Source of the DNA: Thermoplasmata archaeon
Lineage (GTDB): Archaea; Thermoplasmatota; Thermoplasmata; Lutacidiplasmatales; UBA184
NCBI GenBank assembly: GCA_021791335.1
Contig: JAJYWS010000027.1
Location: forward strand, 52,379 to 89,174
Length of the DNA stretch: 36,796 nucleotides
Direction of reading: 5' to 3'
Shown here: positions 25,227 through 36,796 of the stretch, in pieces
Layout of the letters: every line of letters begins with the position of its first letter
How positions within the stretch are numbered: the stretch's first letter is position 1
The notes under the pieces: generated by a model
What the model saw: the letters and a program-made list of their open reading frames with translations, nothing else
What the model was told of the DNA's origin: nothing
Database searches by the model: none
Made by a program: the position numbers and the translations under genes

Positions 25227-26645
25227 ATGGTCACTCCCCTCATCGAGTTCATCGTCGACCTGTTTCTCCTGCTCGCCGGCTCCCTGCTCGCCGGCGAGGC
25301 CGCGAGCCGGTTGGGCCAGCCCGCGCTCGTCGGCCAGCTCCTGGTCGGCCTCCTGCTCGGGCCGACCCTTGTGGGCCCGTTCATCGGTCTCGGCAGCCTC
25401 GGTCCGGAGTTCACCTCGATCCAGTTCATCGCGACGGTCTTCGTGCTGTTCGTCGCCGGCCTCGAGATCGTTCCCGAGGACATCTACCGGATGGGCCCGG
25501 CGAACCTGCTCTTGGGGATCGCGCTCTTCGTCGTCCCGCTCCTGGCGAGCGCGGGAGCGATCACCCTGCTCTTTCCTCCCGAACCGTTCACCACGACCCT
25601 CTTCATCGCCCTGACCCTCTCGATCACCGCGCTCCCGGTGATGGGCATCATGCTGGTCCAGTTCGGACTGGTCAAGGGCGCCCGCGGCCGGTTCCTGATG
25701 AACCTCGCCCTGATCAACGAGATCAGCGCCGTCACCCTCTTCGCGATCCTGCTCCAGCTCCACACGGGGAGCGGTGCCCCGACGATCGCGGTCGGGCTCG
25801 CGGTCGGGGCCCTCGGCGGCTTCCTCGCCCTCATGTTCGGCCTCTACTTTCTGATCCGCCACCTCGAGAGGACCCGGACCTGGGGGATCCTGCAGGCGCG
25901 GTTCTCGGCGGAGTGGCGCTCGAAGGGGGCCGGCTTTGCGCTGCTCATGGTCCTCCTGGTCGGGGCCGCGCTGCTCTCCCAGGCGCTCGACCTGACCTAC
26001 GTGGTCGGGGCCTTCTACGCGGGCGTCCTCGTGACCCACAAGACTGCCGGACCGGAGGCCCACCGGTCGATCAGCACGGTCTTCGACACCATCTCCTGGG
26101 GGTTCTTCATCCCCCTCTTCTTCGCGTTCGTCGGGGTCCAGATGAACCTCCGGCTGCTCGACGATCCGGGGCTGGTGGCCGCCCTGGTCGCGCTGGTCGG
26201 CGTCGCGATCCTCAGCAAGGTCGTGGTCGGCTATCTCGCCGGCCAGATCCGCCAGGAGAGTTCCTCCGACTCCCTCGCCATCGGCTTCCTCTGTTCCAGC
26301 CGGGGCGCGGTCGAGCTCGCGATGGCGGTGATCCTCCTCCAGGCGGGCGTCTTCACCCCCGAGATCTTCACGATCGTCGCGACGGTCGGGCTGGTCACCA
26401 CCATCGCGGCGCCCGTGGGCGCGGTCTGGGCGTGGAGCCGGAGCCCGGCGAGCCGGGCCGACCTCCTCCACCGGGTCCCGGCCCTGGCCCAGGAGTCGGG
26501 CTGGCTGGGACGGCTGCCGGCCATCACCGAGTGGGATGGATCGCCCCCTCCGGCGGCCCCGGGGGCGGCGGGCGACCCACCGTCCTCGTCCCCTCGGCCC
26601 CGCCGACCCCCCTTGCCTCCGCCTCCGACGGATCAGGGGCGGTGA
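25227..26645 (+). CDS. CPA2-family cation:proton antiporter
   Basis: This integral membrane exchanger of Na+ or K+ for H+ should help control cytoplasmic pH. It has 472 residues and about twelve spans, followed by a cytoplasmic Pro-rich tail of about 60 residues and no TrkA-N domain. Family patterns are the early GQP-LVGQLLVGLLLGP segment, FVLFVAGLEI (about 71-80) and the late SRGAVELAMA block (about 350-359). At the ion-binding position of span five, where many antiporters have Asp-Asp or Asn-Asp, this one reads INEISA. Its end overlaps the convergent H+-ATPase gene by 13 bp. Ion specificity cannot be read. Confidence 0.88.
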   Translation: MVTPLIEFIVDLFLLLAGSLLAGEAASRLGQPALVGQLLVGLLLGPTLVGPFIGLGSLGPEFTSIQFIATVFVLFVAGLEIVPEDIYRMGPANLLLGIALFVVPLLASAGAITLLFPPEPFTTTLFIALTLSITALPVMGIMLVQFGLVKGARGRFLMNLALINEISAVTLFAILLQLHTGSGAPTIAVGLAVGALGGFLALMFGLYFLIRHLERTRTWGILQARFSAEWRSKGAGFALLMVLLVGAALLSQALDLTYVVGAFYAGVLVTHKTAGPEAHRSISTVFDTISWGFFIPLFFAFVGVQMNLRLLDDPGLVAALVALVGVAILSKVVVGYLAGQIRQESSSDSLAIGFLCSSRGAVELAMAVILLQAGVFTPEIFTIVATVGLVTTIAAPVGAVWAWSRSPASRADLLHRVPALAQESGWLGRLPAITEWDGSPPPAAPGAAGDPPSSSPRPRRPPLPPPPTDQGR

Positions 26646-28984
26646 ACGGCCCGGATCGGGACCGGGGGCCGCGGGGCCGGCCCCGAGAGCCGGACCATCA
26701 GCCACCCCTTCGTCCGGTCCAAGAGGGCCATCAGAGCGACCACCGCACCGGCCAGGACCCCGAGCGCCTCGGGGGTCACCGGCGCCATCGCCACGCCCGC
26801 GAGGGCCAGCACGGAGGCGGCTCCCACCACCCCGATCGTGGAGAGGCCGACCCACCGACCCGGCCGTCGGCGCCAGATCGAGCCGGGCGTGCGCAGGAGG
26901 AGGACCGTGGCCTGCACCAGGTAGACCTGATCGACGAAGATCAGGGTCTGCGTCGAGCCCAGCGAGAGCTTGAGGAGCGGGCCCGCGGCGTAGAAGATCC
27001 CGAAGGAGAGCGCCAGCCACGCGGCCCCCAGAGTGGCCGCGACCCCCACCAGCATCCGGACGTCCCAGCGGTTCGGCTCCGGTGACGGCTCGGCGTCATC
27101 GTCGGCGAGCGACATCGTCACGAAGTCGTTCGCGAAGACCAGGAAGAGGATCAGCTGGGGGGTCGTCACGAACTCCCCGGTGACCAGGAGACCGATCGCG
27201 AGCAGGGTGGCGATCTCCACCACCTTGGTCAGCTTGACCAGCGTGTAGGTCAACAGCCGACGGTAGACCCGCCGCCCGGCCTCGACCGCCGGTACGATCC
27301 CGTCGATCCCCGGTTCGGTCAGGACCAGCCGGGCCGCCGACTTGGCGACGTCGGTCGCCGAGTCGACGGCGATCCCGACATCGGCCTGACGGATCGCCGC
27401 CGCATCGTTGACCCCGTCCCCGGTCATCCCCACGACCTCGCCGGCCCCCTGGAGGGCGCGCACCACCGCGTACTTGTCCTCGGGGTAGACACCGGCGAGG
27501 ACCTCCCCCTGCCGGGGGTTGCCCAGGAACTCGGTCCGGTCCACGACCTGGGTGCCGATCCCGAGGGCGCCGGCGACCGCCTCGGCCGTCGCCCGGGTGT
27601 CCCCCGTGACCATCACGACGCGGATCCCGAGCTCCTGGAGCCGCCGGACCACCGCGGCCGAGGTCGGCCGGGGCGGGTCGGCCAGGATGAGCCACCCGAT
27701 CCAGGCGAGCGGGGCCGCGGCCCCGGCCGCCACGGCGAGCACCCGCTCCCCTCCGCGGCCGCGCTGCTCGGCCTCGGCCGCCGCCTCCGCCGGATCCCGC
27801 CCGCACAGGGGAGCCAGGGTGAGGGGGGAGCCCAGGACGACCCGCACCGTCTGCCCGTGGCGGTCGATGGTGGCCTCCGACCGCTTGGTCTGCGGCGTGA
27901 ACGGCACCCGCGCCCGGGTCGGATACGGGTCGATCTTCCGCCGCTGGGCCTCCTGCAGGATCGCCGCATCGATCGCATCCAGCGTGGCGGCATCGGCGAC
28001 GCTCGCGGCGTAGGCGAGCAGTGTCGCCTCACTCTCCCCCGGCCCCGGCTCCGCCCGCTTGAGGGTGAGCCGGTTCTGGGTGAGCGTGCCGGTCTTGTCG
28101 GTGAAGAGGGTGGTCATCGTCGCCGCCTCTTCCACGGCCGAAAGGCCGGTGACGAGAACTCCCTGACCGGCCAGATCGGAGGCCCCCACCGCGTTCGCCA
28201 GGGTGAAGGTGGCCGGGAGGGCCACGGGGATCGACACGATGAGCAGGATGAGGGCGAAGGGCAGCAGGGTCGGCCAGGGGATGCCGGTCAGGTACCCGTA
28301 GGCCGTGACGGCCCCGAGAAGGAGGAGATCGTAGTAGACGAGGTAGCGGACGATGCCGAGGACCAGCCGTTCCAGCCGGCCCGGCGCCTCCGCCTTCCGC
28401 ACGATCTCCGCGGTGCGCCCGAACCGGGTCGACGCCCCGATCGCCGTCACGGTTCCGGTCGCCTCGCCCCGGGTCACGGTCGTGCCGGCGTAGACGTCCG
28501 CGCCGGCCGACCGGTCGACCGCCTCCGACTCCCCGGTGAGCATCGACTGGTCGATCCGGACCCCGCTCCCGCCCACGAGCCGAAGGTCGGCCGGCACCTG
28601 ATCGCCCATCCGCAACTCGACCAGGTCGCCGGGAACGAGCTCCCGGGCGGGAATCTTCCGCCACGTCCCGCCCCGCCGTACTCGGGCACTGACCGGGAGC
28701 CGCTCGCGCAACAGATTCAGGGTGTGCTGGGTGCGCGACTCCTGGACGAAGCTCAGGCCCGCATTGAAGACCAGGAGGGCCGCGATCACCGAGGCGTCCA
28801 CCCAGCGCTCGAGGACCAGTTCGAGAAGGAGGGCGGCCTCCAATAGGGCGGGGATCGCGCCGACGAACTTCCGGGCGAGCCGCCTCAGGGGAGAGGGCCG
28901 GACCTCGGGGACCTCATTGTACCCGACGGACGCCCGCCGCGCCTCCGCTTGAGAATCGGTGAGGTCGGTTACGGGAGGGTCCAT
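26633..28984 (-). CDS. P-type H+-ATPase (P3A, plasma-membrane proton pump type)
   Basis: This enzyme uses ATP to pump protons out of the cell. It has 783 residues with full P-type architecture: actuator TGES at 150-153, the IPVALPA membrane motif (252-258) of the P3A group, the phosphorylated Asp D296 in DKTGTLT, MVTGD at 458-462 and the hinge TGDGVND at 521-527. The ND-FVTMSLADDDAEPSPEP segment matches span six and the loop after it in proton pumps. Regulatory C-terminal domains of plant and fungal pumps are absent. ATG at 28984 gives a normal length. The convergent neighbour is a CPA2 antiporter and the upstream neighbour a stress protein, which fits acid or energy stress. Confidence 0.93.
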   Translation of the reverse strand: MDPPVTDLTDSQAEARRASVGYNEVPEVRPSPLRRLARKFVGAIPALLEAALLLELVLERWVDASVIAALLVFNAGLSFVQESRTQHTLNLLRERLPVSARVRRGGTWRKIPARELVPGDLVELRMGDQVPADLRLVGGSGVRIDQSMLTGESEAVDRSAGADVYAGTTVTRGEATGTVTAIGASTRFGRTAEIVRKAEAPGRLERLVLGIVRYLVYYDLLLLGAVTAYGYLTGIPWPTLLPFALILLIVSIPVALPATFTLANAVGASDLAGQGVLVTGLSAVEEAATMTTLFTDKTGTLTQNRLTLKRAEPGPGESEATLLAYAASVADAATLDAIDAAILQEAQRRKIDPYPTRARVPFTPQTKRSEATIDRHGQTVRVVLGSPLTLAPLCGRDPAEAAAEAEQRGRGGERVLAVAAGAAAPLAWIGWLILADPPRPTSAAVVRRLQELGIRVVMVTGDTRATAEAVAGALGIGTQVVDRTEFLGNPRQGEVLAGVYPEDKYAVVRALQGAGEVVGMTGDGVNDAAAIRQADVGIAVDSATDVAKSAARLVLTEPGIDGIVPAVEAGRRVYRRLLTYTLVKLTKVVEIATLLAIGLLVTGEFVTTPQLILFLVFANDFVTMSLADDDAEPSPEPNRWDVRMLVGVAATLGAAWLALSFGIFYAAGPLLKLSLGSTQTLIFVDQVYLVQATVLLLRTPGSIWRRRPGRWVGLSTIGVVGAASVLALAGVAMAPVTPEALGVLAGAVVALMALLDRTKGWLMVRLSGPAPRPPVPIRAVHRP

Positions 28985-29086: not shown

Positions 29087-29545
29087 TCAGGGGGTCGTCG
29101 GGACGGTCCGGGCGACCAGGACCGGGACCCGAAGATGGTGGACCAGGGCATCGGTGATGCTCCCGAGAAGAAGTCGGCGGCCCGCTCCGACGCCCCGGGG
29201 ACCGACCACCACGAGATCGGTGGGGTGGCGGTCGATATCGTCCAGGAGGGCCTCGGCCACGTTGCCCTGGAGGAGATCGCCCCCCACGGCCGGGGCGCCG
29301 AGGCTCCGGGCCCGCTCGAGGCTCCGGGTGAGCACCGAGCGGTAGTATTCGGTCTGGCCTTCCCAGAAGTCCGGGGGCACATATCCGGCGGCCCCGAACG
29401 CCACGGGGGTCGTGGGCTGGACCACCAGGAGCCGGAGCTCCGCCCCATAGCGGAGCGCGAGATCGACCGCCATCTCGAGGGCGCGATCGGCGTAGGAGGA
29501 GCCGTCCAATGGCACGGTGATGTGGTGGAAGAGGGCGGCGGGCAT
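29087..29545 (-). CDS. Universal stress protein, UspA family
   Basis: The 152-residue protein is a single Usp domain of the ATP-binding type: the C-terminal loop fits G-x2-G-x9-G-S (GPRG, then nine residues, then GS), followed by TDALVHHLRVPVLV. The N-terminus reads HHITVPLDGSSYAD. A GTG at 29563 is open, but ATG 29545 is favoured because a CCTTATGC box is centred 26 bp upstream. A 16-bp palindrome lies immediately further upstream. Usp proteins support survival under stress; the exact role here is unknown. It is next to the proton pump. Confidence 0.9.
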   Translation of the reverse strand: MPAALFHHITVPLDGSSYADRALEMAVDLALRYGAELRLLVVQPTTPVAFGAAGYVPPDFWEGQTEYYRSVLTRSLERARSLGAPAVGGDLLQGNVAEALLDDIDRHPTDLVVVGPRGVGAGRRLLLGSITDALVHHLRVPVLVARTVPTTP

Positions 29546-29567: not shown

Positions 29568-29575
29568 GCATAAGG
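29568..29575 (-). promoter_or_regulatory. TATA-like box of the usp gene
   Basis: CCTTATGC on the minus strand, centred 26 bp before ATG 29545. The palindrome at 29581-29596 is centred 17 bp upstream of it. Confidence 0.6.
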
Positions 29576-29580
29576 CCGGA

Positions 29581-29596
29581 GTCAACCCGGGTTGAC
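29581..29596. promoter_or_regulatory. 16-bp perfect palindrome GTCAACCCGGGTTGAC
   Basis: The palindrome lies just upstream of the usp TATA-like box and just downstream of a winged-helix regulator gene. Its half-sites and 6-bp spacing (GTCAA-N6-TTGAC) recur at 34101-34116 and 36655-36670. Candidate activator or repressor site. Confidence 0.6.
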
Positions 29597-29624
29597 CGGC
29601 GGTCTTCGCCTCTCTACCGCCCGT

Positions 29625-30008
29625 TCACTCCTGGGGCAGCACGGCGTTCCCGCTGCCGCCCTGGGGGGCGACGGCGTCCAGTTCATCGAGCCAGGCCACC
29701 GCGCTCCGGCCCCGTGCGGTGAGCCGGTACAGGTCGTCCACGTGGGCCAGGACCCCTTCGTCGACCAGCTTCCCGACATGGAAGGCGAGTTTCGGAGAGT
29801 CTTCGATCCCGGTCGCCTCCATGAGCCGCCCGAAGTTGACCGCGCCCTGGGCGACCCGGCGGAGCACCGCCCGTCGGATCGGGTGGCCGAGCAGGGCGAG
29901 GACCCGGCCGGTGTCCGGCTCCCCCAGCGCCGTCCGGAGGAACCGGGCATCGGCCTCGGTCATCTGCGCGGAGTCGAAGAGGATCACCAAGGGGCCCCGG
30001 GGGCGCAT
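29625..30008 (-). CDS. Winged-helix (ArsR-like) transcription regulator
   Basis: The 127-residue protein has a central winged helix at about 41-105. HPIRRAVLRRVAQG opens the fold, the recognition region is SPKLAFHVGKLVDEG, and the wing is LAHVDDLYRLTARGRSA. This is the pattern of archaeal ArsR-like HTH proteins. No metal-binding cysteine is present, so it is not a metal sensor of the classical type. The ATG at 30008 lies 3 nt after the stop of the response-regulator fragment, so it is expressed with it. It is the nearest candidate to bind the GTCAA-N6-TTGAC palindromes, one of which lies 28 bp after its stop codon. Confidence 0.82.
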   Translation of the reverse strand: MRPRGPLVILFDSAQMTEADARFLRTALGEPDTGRVLALLGHPIRRAVLRRVAQGAVNFGRLMEATGIEDSPKLAFHVGKLVDEGVLAHVDDLYRLTARGRSAVAWLDELDAVAPQGGSGNAVLPQE

Positions 30009-30011
30009 CCG

Positions 30012-30356
30012 TTACACCAGATCGGTGACGAACCGTTCAATCCCCTCCCGGGGACGGCGCTCGAAGAGCCGCTCGCCCTCCTCGATGAGGAGCCCGACCG
30101 GACCGGGGATCGCGAGCAACCGGTCGACCTCGGTCTGGATCTGCACCGGCGTGACCTCCCGGGCGTCCAAGATCGTCACCCCCGGGAGATCGCCGGCGGC
30201 GCCGGGCGCGACCCGGAGCACCCGACGCCCCTCCCGGGTCACCCAGCGGCGGAGAAGGGGGCCCGGGGCCCCGGTAGTTCCGGGCCGGGCCCGGAACCGG
30301 CGTTCCTGTTCGGCCCGTTCGAGGACCTGGCGGACCTTCTCGATCCGGCAGGGCTT
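30012..30356 (-). pseudogene. Out-of-frame C-terminal part of the response regulator
   Basis: Reading the minus strand from 30356 gives KPCRIEKVRQVLERAEQER, exactly what should follow GAFDYL(R) at the end of a receiver domain (the conserved Lys-Pro and last helix). A further region of about 90 residues then ends RFVTDLV. It is one base out of frame with the N-terminal part. The smaller frame from GTG 30242 covers only the last 76 residues. The C-terminal domain resembles small archaeal sensor-output domains such as DUF835, but that is a weak impression. It is followed at 3 nt by the winged-helix gene. Confidence 0.6.
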
Positions 30357-30655
30357 CGGAGGTAATCGAAGGCGCCGAGCCGCATCGCCTCGACGGCGGT
30401 GTCGATCGTCGCGTAGCCGGTGATCACGACGACCAGGATCTCAGGGTACGTCCCGGTGATCTGGGTGAGGAGGGCGAGCCCCCCCATCCTCGGCATCTTG
30501 AGATCGGTCAGCACCACATCGGCCGGCTGGGTCGCGAGGATCTCGAGCGCCTTCGGTCCCGATGCCGCCAAGGCCACCGAGTGGCCTTCCCCCTCCAGGA
30601 GGCCGCCGAGCTCCTCCCGGAACACCGCATTGTCGTCGACGACGAGGAGACGCAC
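30239..30655 (-). CDS. Response regulator receiver domain, C-terminus frameshifted
   Basis: The receiver domain begins MRLLVVDDNAVF from GTG 30655 (GTG 30661 is also open). Acidic D7 and D8, the phosphorylation Asp in VVLTDLKMPRMGG (about residue 52) and the switch Thr in VITGYA are present. After LGAFDYLR (forward 30357) the frame goes into an Arg/Pro/Gly-rich tail, and the conserved Lys-Pro is found only one base away in another frame. One missing base between 30356 and 30357 explains this. The long upstream extension of the frame to 31036 is unconvincing. The partner may be the NtrB-like kinase at 35055-36611. A sequence error is as likely as a real mutation. Confidence 0.75.
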   Translation of the reverse strand: MRLLVVDDNAVFREELGGLLEGEGHSVALAASGPKALEILATQPADVVLTDLKMPRMGGLALLTQITGTYPEILVVVITGYATIDTAVEAMRLGAFDYLRSPAGSRRSARSSNGPNRNAGSGPGPELPGPRAPFSAAG

Positions 30656-30674
30656 CTCCACGGAAGGGGGGGCC

Positions 30675-30684
30675 GCATAATCAA
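30675..30684 (-). promoter_or_regulatory. TATA-like box of the response regulator
   Basis: TTGATTATGC on the minus strand, centred about 24-26 bp before GTG 30655, which supports that start. Confidence 0.45.
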
Positions 30685-31108
30685 GCTTGCCGACCTGGGC
30701 GCTGAGGCCGCTCTGCGCTCCCGGGAGATTAGCGGCCGCGAAGGGTTCGACGGGAGGAAGGCGCCCCGGTCGGGCGCCGACGGGTTCGCGAGCACCGGCC
30801 GGACCGGGCCGGGACCCCTTCGCAACTCCACCGTGCCTTCGAGAGGCCGGGTCTCGCTCTGGCCTTCGCCGTCTTGTGCACGGCCTCCCCGCTGCCCTTG
30901 GCTTCGCGCAACCTCCCACCGGCGACCGCCGGTCGAACGTCTCGATCGAACCTCCCCCACAAGGTTCCCCGACCGACCTTCCGCCCGGAACGACCGGCCG
31001 CTCCCGATCGGCTCCGTCGGGGGGGCGCTCCGCCACCCGCCTACGGCTCCGGACCCCGGCTGCGGTCTCTCGCCATCCGGGGTCGGGGTCGTTCGGAGGG
31101 GCGCGGGG
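30685..31108. other. Dyad-rich GC-rich spacer of unknown function
   Basis: About 420 bp between the arginine deiminase stop and the response regulator promoter. No protein family appears in any frame. It contains several short perfect hairpins on the same scale as structured RNA: GGCGCCC-N5-GGGCGCC at about 30758-30776, CGAGA-N7-TCTCG at about 30839-30855, and ACCGGC-N4-GCCGGT at about 30920-30935. It was checked by eye for RNase P RNA and SRP 7S RNA core motifs, and neither was found. Confidence 0.4.
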
Positions 31109-32419
31109 TCAACTCCCCGGGCGCCGCCGATGGAGGGCCGCGGTCATGCAGTGGGCGCCTCCATACCCCCCGGTGATCTCCTCCAGGAGCACCGGATGGA
31201 TCTCCACCCCGGCCTGGGAGAGTTCGGGTTTGTGCGGGAAGAACGCATCGCTCGACTTGAGCTCCGCGGCGTCCCGGAGCGCCTGACGGTGGAGGGCCCC
31301 ATAGCGCCCCGGCTGGGCGAGCGCCGAGGCCGCGACGGTCGCGAGGACCCGGGGAATGACCCGTTCGACCTCGATCGCCAGGATCCGGCGGTCGCTGAGC
31401 GTCAGGAAGTTGGAGGCGTAGGAGAGCTGTTCGAGCGTCGTGAGAGGGACGAGGTCGAAGCCGCGTCGCTTGAGGTAGTCGTAGACATTGGTCGTCGTGG
31501 GCTCGCGGACGAACCGGCCCTTCGACCTCCGACGATAGATCTCGGTCCGGGCCCGCTTAAGGAGCGGGATCAGCCCCACCGCGAGATGATCGCCCGCGAG
31601 GTTCAGGTAGGTGTCGAGGTGCATGTCGACCATCGGGTCGGGCGCATTGCCGGGGATCAGGGGATGCGCCGGTTGGTGCACGACCGCAATTTCCTCGTGC
31701 TCCAGCCCGAGCCCCAGGATCTGCCGGACCGCGGCCGCGTTGGTCCGGTCGCCGGTCCCCAGCAGGGCGAACGATCCCGCCGGAAGGAAGTCGCCCCCTT
31801 CGAAGGTTCCGGGCGGCCGGATCTGCCCGATGAAACGGCCCCCGGCGAGTTCCAGGATGGCGCGGGTCAGTTCGGGCTCGGGGCGTCGCTGGGGTTTCGC
31901 CATCCGGGCCTGGATCAACCCCCGGTGGGTCAGCGCCTGTTGGTCGCGGAGGAAGTAGAGGTTGGCGAGGGGGAGGTCGAGCGAGACCCGGGGGTGGTCG
32001 TTGCGGGTGCCGCCCCGCTCGGCGAGGAGCACCGACGGGTGCAGGAGGAGGACGTTGAAGAGCGACTCGGCATCGAACCGGGCCAGGTTGGCCCGGAGCG
32101 CCCGGCGGGCCCGCCGGACCAGCGGCCCGGGCCCGTCGTACCGCAGGAGACGGAGCGCCGACTCCCGGGCCCGTTCCACCAGGGCCGGTTCCTCCCTCGC
32201 CCGGTCGACCATCGTGCGCTTGAGCCGGTGGACCCGGATCCCCTCCTCGACGAGCGCGTGCTCCAGGGCCTCGTGTTCGTAGACGGCCCCGTCCATGCTG
32301 AACGTGCGTTCGTAGAGGAAGGAGTACGGCTCGAGCAGTCCGAAGAACATCTCGATCCCCGGACGGTGGATCATCACATCGGTGAGGGGATCCCACTCGG
32401 CCCACGCTCCGATCTCCAT
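31109..32419 (-). CDS. arcA: Arginine deiminase
   Basis: The enzyme hydrolyses arginine to citrulline and ammonia, the first step of the ATP-yielding arginine deiminase pathway. It has 436 residues. Family motifs are NLYFLRDQQ, TFEGGDF with the catalytic Glu-Asp, MVDMHLDTY with the catalytic His, and the C-terminal nucleophile C424 in GGAHCMT. The ATG lies 6 nt after the permease stop, so the two are an operon. Carbamate kinase is encoded divergently from the permease. Ornithine carbamoyltransferase, the middle step, is not in the window. The ammonia produced also helps to counter acid. Confidence 0.93.
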   Translation of the reverse strand: MEIGAWAEWDPLTDVMIHRPGIEMFFGLLEPYSFLYERTFSMDGAVYEHEALEHALVEEGIRVHRLKRTMVDRAREEPALVERARESALRLLRYDGPGPLVRRARRALRANLARFDAESLFNVLLLHPSVLLAERGGTRNDHPRVSLDLPLANLYFLRDQQALTHRGLIQARMAKPQRRPEPELTRAILELAGGRFIGQIRPPGTFEGGDFLPAGSFALLGTGDRTNAAAVRQILGLGLEHEEIAVVHQPAHPLIPGNAPDPMVDMHLDTYLNLAGDHLAVGLIPLLKRARTEIYRRRSKGRFVREPTTTNVYDYLKRRGFDLVPLTTLEQLSYASNFLTLSDRRILAIEVERVIPRVLATVAASALAQPGRYGALHRQALRDAAELKSSDAFFPHKPELSQAGVEIHPVLLEEITGGYGGAHCMTAALHRRRPGS

Positions 32420-32425
32420 GGCCGC

Positions 32426-34057
32426 CTAGCCCTCCCGGCCGTGCGCCCGCGGCCCGGCCGACGGCGACGGGCCGGGCGGCGACCCGACCGCCGAGCGGTA
32501 CGCCCAGGCGTACATCGCCAGTCCGAAGATCGTGAGCCACAGCAGGTCGAGGGGGGTCCCGTAGAGGCCGATCGGCTGGATCGGGAGGAAGTTCTGGTAG
32601 ACGAAGTAGGGATTGCCGAGGTACGAGAGCAGGATGAGGCCCACCAGATAGACCGCGACCCACGCGACCTGGCCGAGCTCCCTGAGGTTCGGGCGTCGGA
32701 AGAGGTAGTAGAGGGGAAAGCCCGCGAGCATGAGGATCCCCCCCACGAGGGTCCACGGCCAGGAGGCCCAGTAGATGAGGATCGTCGCGAGGACGAACCC
32801 GGCGGGGGCCAGCACGGACGCCCCCGGTAGCCGGAACGGTCGGGGGGTGCCGGGATCGGACCGCCGTAGGACGGTCAGCGACAGCGCCGCCGCCCCGTAC
32901 GGGACGAGCGCCGTGATCGAGGCGATCAGGACGACCTCGGGAAAGCTCGGCAGCGCCAGCAGCACGACGGCCGTGAGCACGCTCGCGAAGACCAGGGCGA
33001 TCGCCGGGGTCCGGAACCGGTGGTCGACCTCGCCGAGCTTCTGGAAGAAGAGGTTGTCCTTGGCCATGGCGTACGGCATCCGGCCCTGGAGCAGCACCCA
33101 GTCCCCGCCGGCGCCCGCCGTCGAGATCAACGCGCCGGCGACGACGATCGCCCCCATCGCGGCCAGGCCCCAGCCGTCGGCCAGGTTCGAGAGGAGCACC
33201 CCGCCGGTCTGGCCCCAGGCCCCGACCGGCACGCCGACCGCGGTCCAGTGGAGGCTCGCGATCGCGGTGAACCCCACGAAGGCGTAGATGCCCGTGACGA
33301 TCAGCACGCTCGCGATCGTCGCGATCGGGATCGTCCGGCGGGGATTTCGGACCTCCTCGCTCGGGATGACCGCCGCCTCGAATCCGGTGAAGGCGAAGAA
33401 GCCGAGGGCCATGGCGAACATCACCCCGGTCCAGCCGAAGGGGGCGAACCCGAAGTCCGTGAAGTTCCCGAGGCCGCCTTCCCTCAGGAAGAAGAGCCCG
33501 ACCACGGCGAAGAGCAGGAGCGGGATCAGCTTCGCCGCGGTGCTCACCACGGCGAAGACGCTCCCCCACTTGATCCCGACGATGTTGAGGAGGGTGAAGA
33601 CGGCCAGGAAGACCAGCGAGATCCCGATGCCGGTCCAGGTGATGATGCCCGAGGTTGTGACCAGTCCCGGCAGGTAGGTGCCGAGGTACTCGATGAACAC
33701 ATCGATGATCGCGGCGGTCCCCACGAACGCGTAGAGGAAGTAGCCCCACCCCATCAGGAAGCCCGCATATTCACCGAGGGCCCGTCGGGGGAGGGCGTAG
33801 GGCCCTCCGGTCTGGGGGTACGCCGCGCCGAGCTCCGCATACGGCAGCGCGAGCACGACGATCACCCCGCCCAGGAGGAGCAGGCCCACGAGCGCGGCGG
33901 GGCCCGCGACCGACCCCATGGTCGCCATCAGGGCGAAGATCCCCGATCCGATGATCCCCCCCACCGTGATGGAGATCAAGCCGCCCAATCCGACCTCGCG
34001 CCGGAGTTCGGCCGGGTTCGCCGGGGGCGGGACGGGAGATGAGGAGGATGCGGTCAT
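32426..34057 (-). CDS. APC-superfamily amino acid permease, probably arginine-related
   Basis: A membrane transporter of 543 residues with about twelve to fourteen spans. The first span has the APC signature VGGIIGSGIFAL, followed by YAELGAAYPQTGGPY. A later GFFAFTGFEAAVIPSEEVRNPRRTIP segment is the conserved span-six/loop region. ATG at 34057 starts shortly before the first span; a longer frame to 34288 extends into the divergent promoter and looks non-coding. It is followed at 6 nt by arginine deiminase, so arginine uptake or arginine:ornithine exchange is the best guess. The 16-bp dyad at 34101-34116 lies about 51 bp upstream. Confidence 0.87.
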   Translation of the reverse strand: MTASSSSPVPPPANPAELRREVGLGGLISITVGGIIGSGIFALMATMGSVAGPAALVGLLLLGGVIVVLALPYAELGAAYPQTGGPYALPRRALGEYAGFLMGWGYFLYAFVGTAAIIDVFIEYLGTYLPGLVTTSGIITWTGIGISLVFLAVFTLLNIVGIKWGSVFAVVSTAAKLIPLLLFAVVGLFFLREGGLGNFTDFGFAPFGWTGVMFAMALGFFAFTGFEAAVIPSEEVRNPRRTIPIATIASVLIVTGIYAFVGFTAIASLHWTAVGVPVGAWGQTGGVLLSNLADGWGLAAMGAIVVAGALISTAGAGGDWVLLQGRMPYAMAKDNLFFQKLGEVDHRFRTPAIALVFASVLTAVVLLALPSFPEVVLIASITALVPYGAAALSLTVLRRSDPGTPRPFRLPGASVLAPAGFVLATILIYWASWPWTLVGGILMLAGFPLYYLFRRPNLRELGQVAWVAVYLVGLILLSYLGNPYFVYQNFLPIQPIGLYGTPLDLLWLTIFGLAMYAWAYRSAVGSPPGPSPSAGPRAHGREG

Positions 34058-34100
34058 GGGCCTCGCCCGTCCAGGGGCCGGGACGGTAGATGAACCGCGG

Positions 34101-34116
34101 CTCAATCGGATTTGAC
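34101..34116. promoter_or_regulatory. Imperfect GTCAA-N6-TTGAC-type dyad (CTCAA-N6-TTGAC)
   Basis: CTCAA (34101-34105), a 6-bp spacer, then TTGAC (34112-34116), in the 136-bp divergent region between the permease-arcA operon and carbamate kinase. Only the first base of the left half differs from the two perfect copies. A CATCTACC stretch about 20 bp away on the permease side may be its TATA-like box. Confidence 0.45.
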
Positions 34117-34193
34117 CGAAACGCCGGGCCCGGCCGTACTCCCGGGGGGAGCCCCCTTTTGGGCGGCGGGCGGCTGGGGTTCGCCGGTCGGTC

Positions 34194-35168
34194 ATGGCGC
34201 GGTTGGTGGTCGCCCTCGGAGGCAATGCGCTCCAGCGGGCCGGAGACCACGGCCGCTGGGAGGAGGCGGTTCGGCGGATGCGCGCCACGGTCGGGCCGCT
34301 CGCCGAACTGGTCCGCGACGGTCACCAGCTGGTGGTCACCCACGGCAACGGCCCCCAGGTGGGGGCGCTGCTGCGGCAGAACGAACTCAGCGAGGGGGAG
34401 GTCCCGCCCCAGCCGCTGTTCGTCCTCGGCGCCGCCTCCGAGGGGGAGATCGGACTCCTCATCCAGCAGGAACTCGAGGCCGGCCTCGCCCGCCGGGGGC
34501 TCCGGGCCACGGTGGTCACCGTCGTCAGCCGCATGGAGGTTTCGGCCTCCGATCCCGCCTTCCGGGATCCCGCCAAACCCATCGGACGGTTCTATCCGGG
34601 TCCCGAGGCCGCCCGGCTTCGGCGGACGAACGGGTGGACGCTCCGGGAGGATCCGGCCCACCGGGGCTGGCGCCGGGTCGTCGCCTCCCCGAGCCCGCGC
34701 CGCTGGCTGGAAGCCGAGGCGGTCCGCTCGTGGCTGGGGGCGCGCCGCCGGACCCCCTGGATCCCGGTCGTGGCGGGCGGCGGGGGCGTGCCGGTGGTCC
34801 GGGAGCGGGGCGGCCGGTACCGGGGGATCGACGCCGTCATCGACAAGGACCGTTCGGCGGCCCTGATCGCCCGCAGCCTCGGGGCCACCGCGCTGGTGAT
34901 CGTCACCGACGTGCCGGCCGTGGCGGTCGGGTTCGGCCGACCGGAGCAACGGTGGCTCGGCGCGGTCACCGACCGGGAGCTGGCCGGCCATGCCCGCCGG
35001 GGGGAGTTCGCCGAGGGGAGCATGGGGCCGAAGGTCCGGGCGGTCCTCGACTTCCTACGGGGCGGGCGCGGACGGGCGATCATCACCGACATCCCGTCGC
35101 TCGGGGCGGCGCTCCGGGGCCGGGCCGGCACCCGGGTCCGGCCCGCCCGCCGGCTCCCGAGGGCGTGA
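34194..35168 (+). CDS. arcC: Carbamate kinase
   Basis: The enzyme converts carbamoyl phosphate and ADP to ATP, carbon dioxide and ammonia, the energy-yielding last step of arginine deiminase fermentation. The 324-residue amino-acid-kinase fold shows VALGGNALQ at the N-terminus, THGNGPQVG (about 49-57), GGGGVPV near 200-206, the IDKD motif (about 219-222) and EGSMGPKV near the C-terminus. ATG at 34194 immediately precedes the first strand. It is divergent from the permease and arginine deiminase. Its last 114 bp overlap the tail of the convergent histidine kinase gene. A biosynthetic role is possible in archaea, but the neighbours favour catabolism. Confidence 0.93.
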   Translation: MARLVVALGGNALQRAGDHGRWEEAVRRMRATVGPLAELVRDGHQLVVTHGNGPQVGALLRQNELSEGEVPPQPLFVLGAASEGEIGLLIQQELEAGLARRGLRATVVTVVSRMEVSASDPAFRDPAKPIGRFYPGPEAARLRRTNGWTLREDPAHRGWRRVVASPSPRRWLEAEAVRSWLGARRRTPWIPVVAGGGGVPVVRERGGRYRGIDAVIDKDRSAALIARSLGATALVIVTDVPAVAVGFGRPEQRWLGAVTDRELAGHARRGEFAEGSMGPKVRAVLDFLRGGRGRAIITDIPSLGAALRGRAGTRVRPARRLPRA

Positions 35169-36611
35169 GCGACCGCCGATCTCCCCCGGCCCCCGGGGAA
35201 GGGTGATCCGGAAGGCCGCGCCGCCCGCCGGCCGGTTCGAGGCGACGATCGCCCCGTGGTGGGCGGCCATGATCCGGAAGCTGACGGCGAGGCCCAGGCC
35301 GGTCCCCTTGCCTTCCTGCTTGGTGGTGAAGAACGGTTCGAAGATCCTCGGCAGGTCCCGCTCGGGGATCCCCGGCCCCGAGTCGGCGACGGTGACCTCG
35401 GCCCGGGAGTCGTCGACCCGGCCCTCGATCTCGATCCGCCCCGAGTCGCCCATCGCGTCGTAGGCGTTGTGGAGGAGGTTGGTCAGGACCTGCACGAGCT
35501 GGCCCCGGTCGGCGAGCACCTCCATCGGTTCGTCGGGGAGCCGGACCCGGATCTCGACGTCGGGCGATCGCATCCCCTGGACCAAGGCGACCGCCTCGCG
35601 TACGGCCGTCGCCAGGTCGACCCGGCGCAGCGAGGTCGGGCTGACCCGGGCGAAATCCAGGAGCCCCCGGACGATCCGACCGGCCTCCTCGACCTGCTGC
35701 TGGATCGACTCCACCCGGTCCGCCACCTCCGGACGGTCGACCCTCCGCCGGAGGCTTTCGGCGAGCAGCGAGATGTTGGCGAGCGGCGTGTTGAGCTCGT
35801 GGGCGACCCCCGCCGACAGCTGCCCCAGGGAGGCCAGCCGGTCGGCCCGGATCGCCCCGGCCTCCCATGCCCGGCGCTCGGTCAGATCTTCGGTGACCCC
35901 GAGGTAATAGCGGATCTCCCCGTGTCGGTCCCGGATCGCCGCGATGCTGAGGAGCACCGGGTGTTCGCCCCCCCAGCGGTCCCGGTTGACGATCTCGCCG
36001 GCCCAGTGGCCGACCGTGGGATCGGTCAGGGCCGCCCACATCGCCTCGTACAGCCCGAGGGCGGTGTGGCGGCTGCGCACCAGGGAGGGCTTGCGGCCGC
36101 GGCATTCGGCCGGACTGTAGCCGTAGACCCGCTCGAACGCGGGATTGACATCGAGGAGGATCCCCCGCACGTCGGTGATCTCCATCGGGTTGGAACTGGT
36201 CCGATACGCCGCGTAGAACAGCTCTTCCCGGAGCGCGGCCGCCTCCTCCCGGGAATCCGAAGGCACCCGCAGGAGGAGCCCCGGACCGGGGGCCCCGTCG
36301 CGGACCCCCCGGATCAGTTCGACGGCCGGGGCGTCGGGGAGCTCCGGGCGTCCGCGGAGGAGCCGGGCGAAGGGCAGCGACCGGGGATCGGCGGTGTCGG
36401 ATCCTTCGCAGAGGGTTCGGACGAGAGCCAGGAACTCCTCCGACCAGATCGTCGGATCGCCGGCCCGGAGGGCCGGGGCCCCTTCGGTCGGCCAGTGGCG
36501 GGCGAACCCGGCCGTCCACCAGATGAGCCGTCCGGCCGGATCGACCCAGGCGAACCCCTCGCCCGGACCCGGTGGCGGAGGCCCCGCGTTGGCCCGCTCG
36601 ATGTCGGTCAT
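35055..36611 (-). CDS. PAS-domain sensor histidine kinase (NtrB-like)
   Basis: A soluble sensor kinase of 518 residues. An uncharacterised N-terminal region (1-130) with an Asp-Pro-x-Gly pattern typical of a degenerate PAS domain is followed by a clear PAS domain (about 132-248) reading ITDVRGILLDVNPAFERVYGY. The dimerisation helix has H271 in VAHELNTPL, and the ATPase domain has N382 in NLLHNAYDAMG, DSGPG (410-414), FEPFFTTK and GTGLGL (436-441). The last 50 residues are Pro/Arg/Gly-rich and encoded antisense to carbamate kinase. ATG 36611 is preferred over TTG 36665. It is divergent from a receiver-domain gene, with the 16-bp dyad between them. No membrane span, so it should sense a cytoplasmic signal. 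Confidence 0.9.
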   Translation of the reverse strand: MTDIERANAGPPPPGPGEGFAWVDPAGRLIWWTAGFARHWPTEGAPALRAGDPTIWSEEFLALVRTLCEGSDTADPRSLPFARLLRGRPELPDAPAVELIRGVRDGAPGPGLLLRVPSDSREEAAALREELFYAAYRTSSNPMEITDVRGILLDVNPAFERVYGYSPAECRGRKPSLVRSRHTALGLYEAMWAALTDPTVGHWAGEIVNRDRWGGEHPVLLSIAAIRDRHGEIRYYLGVTEDLTERRAWEAGAIRADRLASLGQLSAGVAHELNTPLANISLLAESLRRRVDRPEVADRVESIQQQVEEAGRIVRGLLDFARVSPTSLRRVDLATAVREAVALVQGMRSPDVEIRVRLPDEPMEVLADRGQLVQVLTNLLHNAYDAMGDSGRIEIEGRVDDSRAEVTVADSGPGIPERDLPRIFEPFFTTKQEGKGTGLGLAVSFRIMAAHHGAIVASNRPAGGAAFRITLPRGPGEIGGRSRPREPAGGPDPGAGPAPERRPERRDVGDDRPSAPAP

Positions 36612-36653
36612 CGATCTCAGCCCCCGGAACGCCCCGCGGGCCCATCTAGAGGC

Positions 36654-36671
36654 AGTCAACCCCAATTGACT
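36654..36671. promoter_or_regulatory. 18-bp dyad AGTCAA-N6-TTGACT between kinase and receiver genes
   Basis: The arms AGTCAA (36654-36659) and TTGACT (36666-36671) are exact reverse complements. The site is centred about 44 bp before the receiver gene ATG and 16 bp upstream of its TATA-like box, the same geometry as at the usp promoter. Confidence 0.6.
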
Positions 36672-36674
36672 AGA

Positions 36675-36682
36675 CTTCTAAT
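36675..36682 (+). promoter_or_regulatory. TATA-like box of the receiver gene
   Basis: CTTCTAAT, centred about 28 bp before the ATG at 36707, consistent with a leaderless start. Confidence 0.45.
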
Positions 36683-36706
36683 CGTTCCCCCGGTATCGCC
36701 CCCGCG

Positions 36707-36796
36707 ATGTCCCCGGGAACCATCCTCATCGTCGGGGAGACCCGCAGCCTCTCCGATTCGCTCGCGGCCCTCCTGGAGTCGGATGGCCTGCCGATC
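36707..36796 (+). CDS. Receiver-like protein, N-terminal fragment at window edge
   Basis: Only 30 codons are present. The start TILIVGETRSLSDSLAALLESDG has the strand-loop-helix pattern of a response regulator receiver domain, but the acidic pair after the first strand is reduced to a single Glu (VGET). It may therefore be a divergent or pseudo-receiver. It is divergent from the PAS histidine kinase and is a likely partner. The ATG position is supported by the TATA-like box 28 bp upstream. Confidence 0.55.
   Translation, partial: MSPGTILIVGETRSLSDSLAALLESDGLPI

Follow-up and report, generated by a model that had tools for sequence, protein, structure and literature searches.

The motif GTCAA-N6-TTGAC, a dyad present in three promoter regions of a 36,796-nucleotide stretch of DNA (the window) from a Thermoplasmata archaeon of the order Lutacidiplasmatales, is an operator. 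As judged from sequence comparisons and structure models, it most probably serves a dedicated two-component system, in which a PAS histidine kinase and its response regulator would activate a regulon for redox or low-oxygen stress. The window (G000:C35:52379-89174) reaches the right end of its contig, C35, and belongs to a metagenome-assembled genome (MAG) of 1.41 Mb, 93% complete and about 70% GC. An earlier reading of the letters alone (the sequence-only reading) had placed two perfect intergenic copies in the window, one upstream of a universal stress protein gene (usp) and the other between the kinase gene and a small receiver-like gene, and motif search bore out their positions and setting. 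A third copy, with one mismatch, was likewise found where it had been reported, in the intergenic region between an amino-acid permease-arginine deiminase (arcA) pair and the carbamate kinase gene arcC (Table 1).

Within the window, these three sites are the only matches with at most two mismatches. This count does not exceed that of shuffled sequences (3 versus a mean of 5.2), so window-only enrichment at that threshold was set aside in favour of perfect matches over the whole genome, which number four, compared with none for the reversed control motif. Three other one-mismatch copies occur in the genome, none with a TATA box at the expected offset. The end of contig C35 (window 36670-36796) and the reverse complement of the end of contig C25 (L010:5698-5824) share about 127 bases, and C25, which carries the receiver-like gene, fhs, OsmC and a zinc alcohol dehydrogenase, most likely lies directly after C35, an order that would bring three of the four perfect sites within about 10 kb.

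Across 61 genomes of the same genus, the motif occurs 132 times and its reversed control 6 times, and in other families of the order and class its count is mostly near the control. The spacing is strict: in 0.9 Mb of fetched loci, 94 distinct sites have six bases between the arms and none has N0-N5 or N7-N10; since these loci were partly chosen by their N6 sites, the zeros at the other spacings are informative and the figure of 94 is no rate. Roughly 1-10 promoters per genome carry the motif, and the comparison of intergenic with coding placement proposed in the sequence-only reading found the sites to be almost all promoter-proximal. A literature search with the operator string gave no match, and an FNR-like site, TTGAT-N4-ATCAA, was rejected as a counterpart, its arms pointing the other way and its spacing being different.

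Conservation in close relatives, the other check proposed at the outset, was examined in the nearest relative (G018), where all the window sites are conserved. The site between the kinase and receiver-like genes is identical at 16 of 16 bases; the OsmC and SDR sites differ in their spacers and keep both arms; at the arc site, CTCAA-N6-TTGA persists between flanks that are not the same; and the usp site has one arm intact and a single mismatch in the other. Between the host genome and this relative, arms are thus kept while spacers and flanks drift.

The operator stands at a fixed distance from the promoter. Offsets were counted from the first base of the site, and TATA boxes were scored with a matrix whose maximum is 12.5. 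At both perfect window sites, a TATA-like box occupies +22 to +27, 17 bp from the site centre, and the ATG falls at +51 (usp) or +52 (receiver-like gene), about 44 bp from the centre, so the constant geometry asserted for these two copies holds. The copy at 34101 shows the same TATA geometry towards the permease: on the minus strand, TTCATC scores 9.7 of 12.5 and the permease ATG lies at +58, whereas the arcC side scores -12.9. Regulation of arcC by this site is unsupported, because no TATA box stands at the fixed offset there, and the promoter served is that of permease-arcA.

This geometry extends over the genus. When sites are aligned by their palindrome, an AT-rich box appears at +22 to +26 only; at a single offset, 74 of the 93 distinct sites agree with the TATA matrix, and 39 other shifts give 0-6. 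Among the sites left out of the matrix fitting, a TATA box is present in 24 of 25, versus 3.5% of random positions. Sites with one mismatch pass in 31 of 43 cases, those with two in 28 of 94 and those with three in 4%; with so many one- and two-mismatch sites passing, lists of perfect matches undercount the regulon. Six base pairs separate the right arm from the TATA box; without exception the site lies upstream, and overlap with the TATA box or the start codon is never seen. Start codons cluster at +52 and +61, positions that would fit leaderless or nearly leaderless archaeal messages.

Genomic linkage ties the operator to the two-component system. A site lies within 6.5 kb of the regulator gene in 16 cases where 1.1 are expected (about 15-fold), and the regulatory genes that recur beside sites, on maps in which part of the neighbours were annotated, are the regulator and the kinase. 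Among genomes at least 90% complete, sites occur in 18 of 18 that are kinase-positive and in 1 of 8 that are kinase-negative (Fisher p 1.2e-5); at 80% completeness or more, the counts are 31 of 34 and 4 of 13. The kinase was picked as the marker after an earlier prediction had failed for G055, which makes the comparison of 18/18 with 1/8 no pre-registered test; the failure of that written prediction is explained by a G055 regulator truncated at residue 162, with the kinase on the same contig. Four kinase-positive genomes lacking perfect sites (G054, G006, G016 and G068) have one-mismatch sites with a TATA box near the kinase. On an rpoB tree, about four kinase losses can be placed, two of them on well-supported branches; sites vanish in three, and the opposite is never seen.

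An earlier co-occurrence test, based on the winged helix alone, gave p 0.003 over the 61 genomes and 32 of 40 versus 3 of 7 among those at least 80% complete; it was weak because the kinase-paired regulator was mixed with an unpaired paralogue. This paralogous regulator shares the same architecture without an adjoining PAS kinase (L252, L254, L255, L257, L258, L259, L262, L269) and is found mostly in genomes without the motif. Genomes that have only the unpaired paralogue (G053, G083, G084, G085, G060, G073) have no sites, and, with the exception of G054, G075 and G076, the site-less genomes with a winged-helix match carry that paralogue only. It presumably reads another operator.

In relatives, the kinase orthologues adjoin a gene for a response regulator of 343-363 amino acids. 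Pfam assigns Response_reg (E 5e-28) to residues 4-112 and the DUF7347 winged helix to residues 251-321 of an intact orthologue, whereas HTH_10 and GerE/NarL output domains have no Pfam match in the regulator; receiver residues D7, D8, D51, T79 and K101 are invariant in intact orthologues. The AlphaFold2 model of the regulator of AcS1-3, a same-genus relative assigned to the Lutacidiplasmatales (PMC9287336), has a mean pLDDT of 85.6 and places the receiver at residues 1-123, an alpha/beta domain at 131-245 and the winged helix at 247-332. The middle domain has no Pfam assignment and a DUF835 match of E 0.12, and Foldseek with the whole regulator model returned receiver-driven matches only. The winged helix of the window, modelled by itself (mean pLDDT 77, core above 90), has BigR, YodB and SmtB as its top Foldseek matches (E 1.5e-4 to 3.7e-4) and contains no cysteine. 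A response regulator of Helarchaeota (L228:3103-4221) has the same receiver-middle-winged-helix order at 24% identity.

These results redraw the list of candidate binders. The sequence-only reading had named a separate winged-helix protein and two separate receiver proteins. In relatives, the winged helix and a receiver share one open reading frame, which makes the former the C-terminal output domain of the response regulator; in the window, the receiver at about 30345-30655 belongs to that gene too. The other receiver, the receiver-like protein encoded beside the kinase, is itself one of the targets and has no acidic phosphorylation pocket, VGET replacing the acidic VDD; it matches no Pfam family and is a conserved neighbour of the kinase, with relatives in L145, L150 and L138.

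The proposed regulon of stress protein, arginine deiminase and two-component system is supported and proves larger than first suggested. In the host genome, it comprises usp, permease-arcA, the receiver-like gene, OsmC (C25:3606) and SDR (C46:3773), and in relatives the targets amount to about 20 families. The most frequent over the genus are cupredoxin-like proteins (11; a label drawn from sequences and mutual homology, as Pfam does not name the representative), receiver-like proteins (6), zinc alcohol dehydrogenase (5), GNAT (5) and thermosome (4). USP, OsmC, permease, Hsp20, flavodoxin, branched-chain-type aminotransferase and the gamma subunit of 2-oxoacid:ferredoxin oxidoreductase occur three times each, malic enzyme, Dps, SDR and AhpD-like proteins twice each, and DsrE and TusA once. 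Permease genes of relatives (L042, L063, L065) also have perfect sites. Another recurrent target family, of about 230 amino acids, has no Pfam match (L096:3087-3827, also L062, L072 and L073). Directly downstream of usp in the window, and possibly co-transcribed with it, lies a P-type ATPase gene (26633-28984, minus strand), nearest to the plasma-membrane proton-efflux type IIIA.

Table 1. Operator copies, promoter elements and genes of the window (positions counted from its first base).
Feature	Position	Strand	Remarks
Operator GTCAACCCGGGTTGAC, usp promoter	29581..29596	-	Perfect GTCAA-N6-TTGAC; TATA score 7.8 on the minus side
Operator CTCAATCGGATTTGAC, facing permease-arcA	34101..34116	-	One mismatch; TATA score 9.7 on the minus side
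Operator GTCAACCCCAATTGAC, between PAS kinase and receiver-like gene	36655..36670	+	Perfect copy
TATA-like box CTTATG, usp	29569..29574	-	+22 to +27 from the site
TATA-like box, receiver-like gene	36677..36682	+	Score 4.2
Universal stress protein (usp), target	29087..29545	-	Pfam Usp, E 2.2e-25; ATG at +51 from the operator
Response regulator gene (receiver, middle domain, winged helix), broken	29625..30655	-	Intact 343-aa orthologue at L040:448-1479
Winged-helix output domain of the response regulator	29625..30008	-	DUF7347, E 3.7e-11; HTH_20 below cut-off
Arginine deiminase arcA, target downstream of permease	31109..32419	-	Pfam ADI, E 1.1e-33
Amino-acid permease, target	32426..34058	-	AA_permease_2, E 3.4e-49
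Carbamate kinase arcC	34194..35168	+	No TATA box at the fixed offset on the arcC side
PAS sensor histidine kinase, cognate kinase	35055..36611	-	PAS; HisKA, E 1.9e-14; HATPase_c, E 1.5e-26
Receiver-like protein (start), small, degenerate, 172 aa, target	36707..36796	+	Continues in C25 (L010:5269-5787, minus strand)

In the proposed mechanism, a soluble PAS histidine kinase would phosphorylate a regulator in which a receiver is followed by an alpha/beta domain and, at the C-terminus, by an ArsR-like winged helix. A regulator dimer would then bind the palindrome, one winged helix per GTCAA arm, a reading suggested by the fit of dyad, exact spacing and winged-helix fold. Regulators of the ArsR/SmtB family act as dimers on palindromes. 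The dimer would sit directly upstream of the B recognition element (BRE) and TATA box of leaderless or short-leader promoters and activate transcription, most likely by recruiting TBP or TFB. The position of the site immediately upstream of the BRE, where archaeal activators such as EarA and Ptr2 typically bind (PMC5512572), speaks for activation rather than repression. The targets, which in relatives include further redox, chaperone and anaerobic-energy genes, would respond to redox stress or oxygen limitation. This signal is suggested by what the targets encode (proteins of redox and thiol stress, chaperones, arginine deiminase, and ferredoxin-linked and malic enzymes) together with the facultatively anaerobic life proposed for the Lutacidiplasmatales, an acid-soil order described as aerobic and facultatively anaerobic (PMC9287336). 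The fuller picture, in which a genus-wide regulon is activated from just upstream of the BRE and has, by convergence, a low-oxygen and redox content like that of the DosR and ANR regulons of bacteria, is an even call.

Operator, reader and regulon would all stay the same if the regulator were a repressor that bars TFB from the BRE and leaves the site once the kinase becomes active. With only six base pairs between arm and TATA box, a bound dimer would adjoin the BRE or cover part of it, and the closest winged-helix folds, such as BigR and SmtB, are repressors; however, the site is always upstream at one offset, never over the TATA box or start codon, a position typical of archaeal activators (PMC5512572), and repression is considered unlikely. 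Chance palindromes in a GC-rich genome, which the window count at up to two mismatches would allow, are refuted by the 132 versus 6 genus-wide copies, the exact TATA offset and the conserved arms, leaving this explanation a negligible probability. The fixed distance to the TATA box would also suit a promoter element recognised by a special TFB or TBP, acting as an alternative basal factor, but a dyad with a free spacer, the strict N6 spacing, the small number of promoters per genome and the absence from most kinase-less genomes make such an element very improbable.

Several observations weigh against the proposed mechanism. In the host MAG, the regulator gene, intact in relatives, has lost one base near 30359-30361, which shifts the frame, and has an in-frame TAA at 30012-30014. 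A misassembly, decay into a pseudogene, or a split in which the winged helix is still made from an ATG at 30008 may account for this. Three kinase-negative genomes bear sites (G081 three, G082 one, G088 one), with no regulator orthologue found, and G076 is kinase-positive without a perfect site. The promoter of the PAS kinase itself has only a weak TATA box at the expected place (score 0.7). With about four independent kinase losses, a paired sign test cannot reach significance. As to the signal, the second-best NCBIfam match of the kinase is FixL, far below the cut-off, and nothing points to a ligand. Sites kept beside a broken regulator gene, and sites in G081, G082 and G088 where no kinase was detected, are what would be expected if another transcription factor that happens to share the neighbourhood read the operator and the two-component system were merely one of its targets. 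Yet site loss follows kinase loss in three of four cases, linkage is about 15-fold above chance, a kinase can be missed in incomplete MAGs, and the regulator and kinase are the regulatory genes recurring beside the sites among the neighbours annotated; a separate reader is accordingly rated as rather improbable, and the dedicated two-component system remains the preferred reading.

Archaeal response regulators mostly lack a DNA-binding domain, only 116 of 1,875 having a helix-turn-helix (HTH) and one of these being in Thermoplasmata, and experimental work has covered only a small number of archaeal two-component systems (PMC5847659). Here, for an uncultivated lineage, sequence by itself yields a kinase, its likely regulator, some 20 target families and an operator that is resolved to the base and whose distance to the TATA box is known. 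With these parts in hand, a direct test becomes possible of how a bacterial-type phospho-switch may drive a eukaryote-like TBP/TFB promoter.

In bacteria, ANR and FNR run a low-oxygen or redox programme in which usp and fermentative or redox enzymes share one operator. The DosRS system of mycobacteria and the NmpR system of Myxococcus have a similar content under a single operator (PMC2914252, PMC11841059). All these regulators (DosRS NarL-type, ANR/FNR CRP-type, NmpR NtrC-type), and likewise their operators, are unrelated to those described here, where an oxygen response is suggested by the targets. The ArsR/SmtB family (BigR, SmtB, NolR) appears, from the models, to share the fold of the output domain; its members are mostly stand-alone sensors, whereas here the fold would serve as the output domain of a response regulator, cysteine-free in the window copy. 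Within archaea, the Bat-type REC-PAS-GAF-BAT-HTH_10 proteins of haloarchaea likewise combine a receiver with a DNA-binding output and a redox or oxygen theme, but their output is HTH_10, which has no match here. The REC-DUF835 proteins of Methanomicrobia and Thermoplasmata also place an alpha/beta domain after the receiver, and the middle domain here may be DUF835-like (PMC5847659), although its match reaches only E 0.12 and the regulator carries an additional C-terminal winged helix. Close parallels are LtrK-LtrR of Methanococcoides burtonii and FilI-FilR1 of Methanosaeta, each an archaeal kinase with a response regulator bearing a (winged) HTH; the Fil system even has a stand-alone receiver partner, FilR2 (PMC5847659), comparable with the receiver-like protein. 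In LtrR and FilR1, the HTH is N-terminal and the receiver C-terminal, whereas here, in another lineage, the order is receiver, middle domain and DUF7347 winged helix, and, in contrast to both systems, the operator is mapped across a genus.

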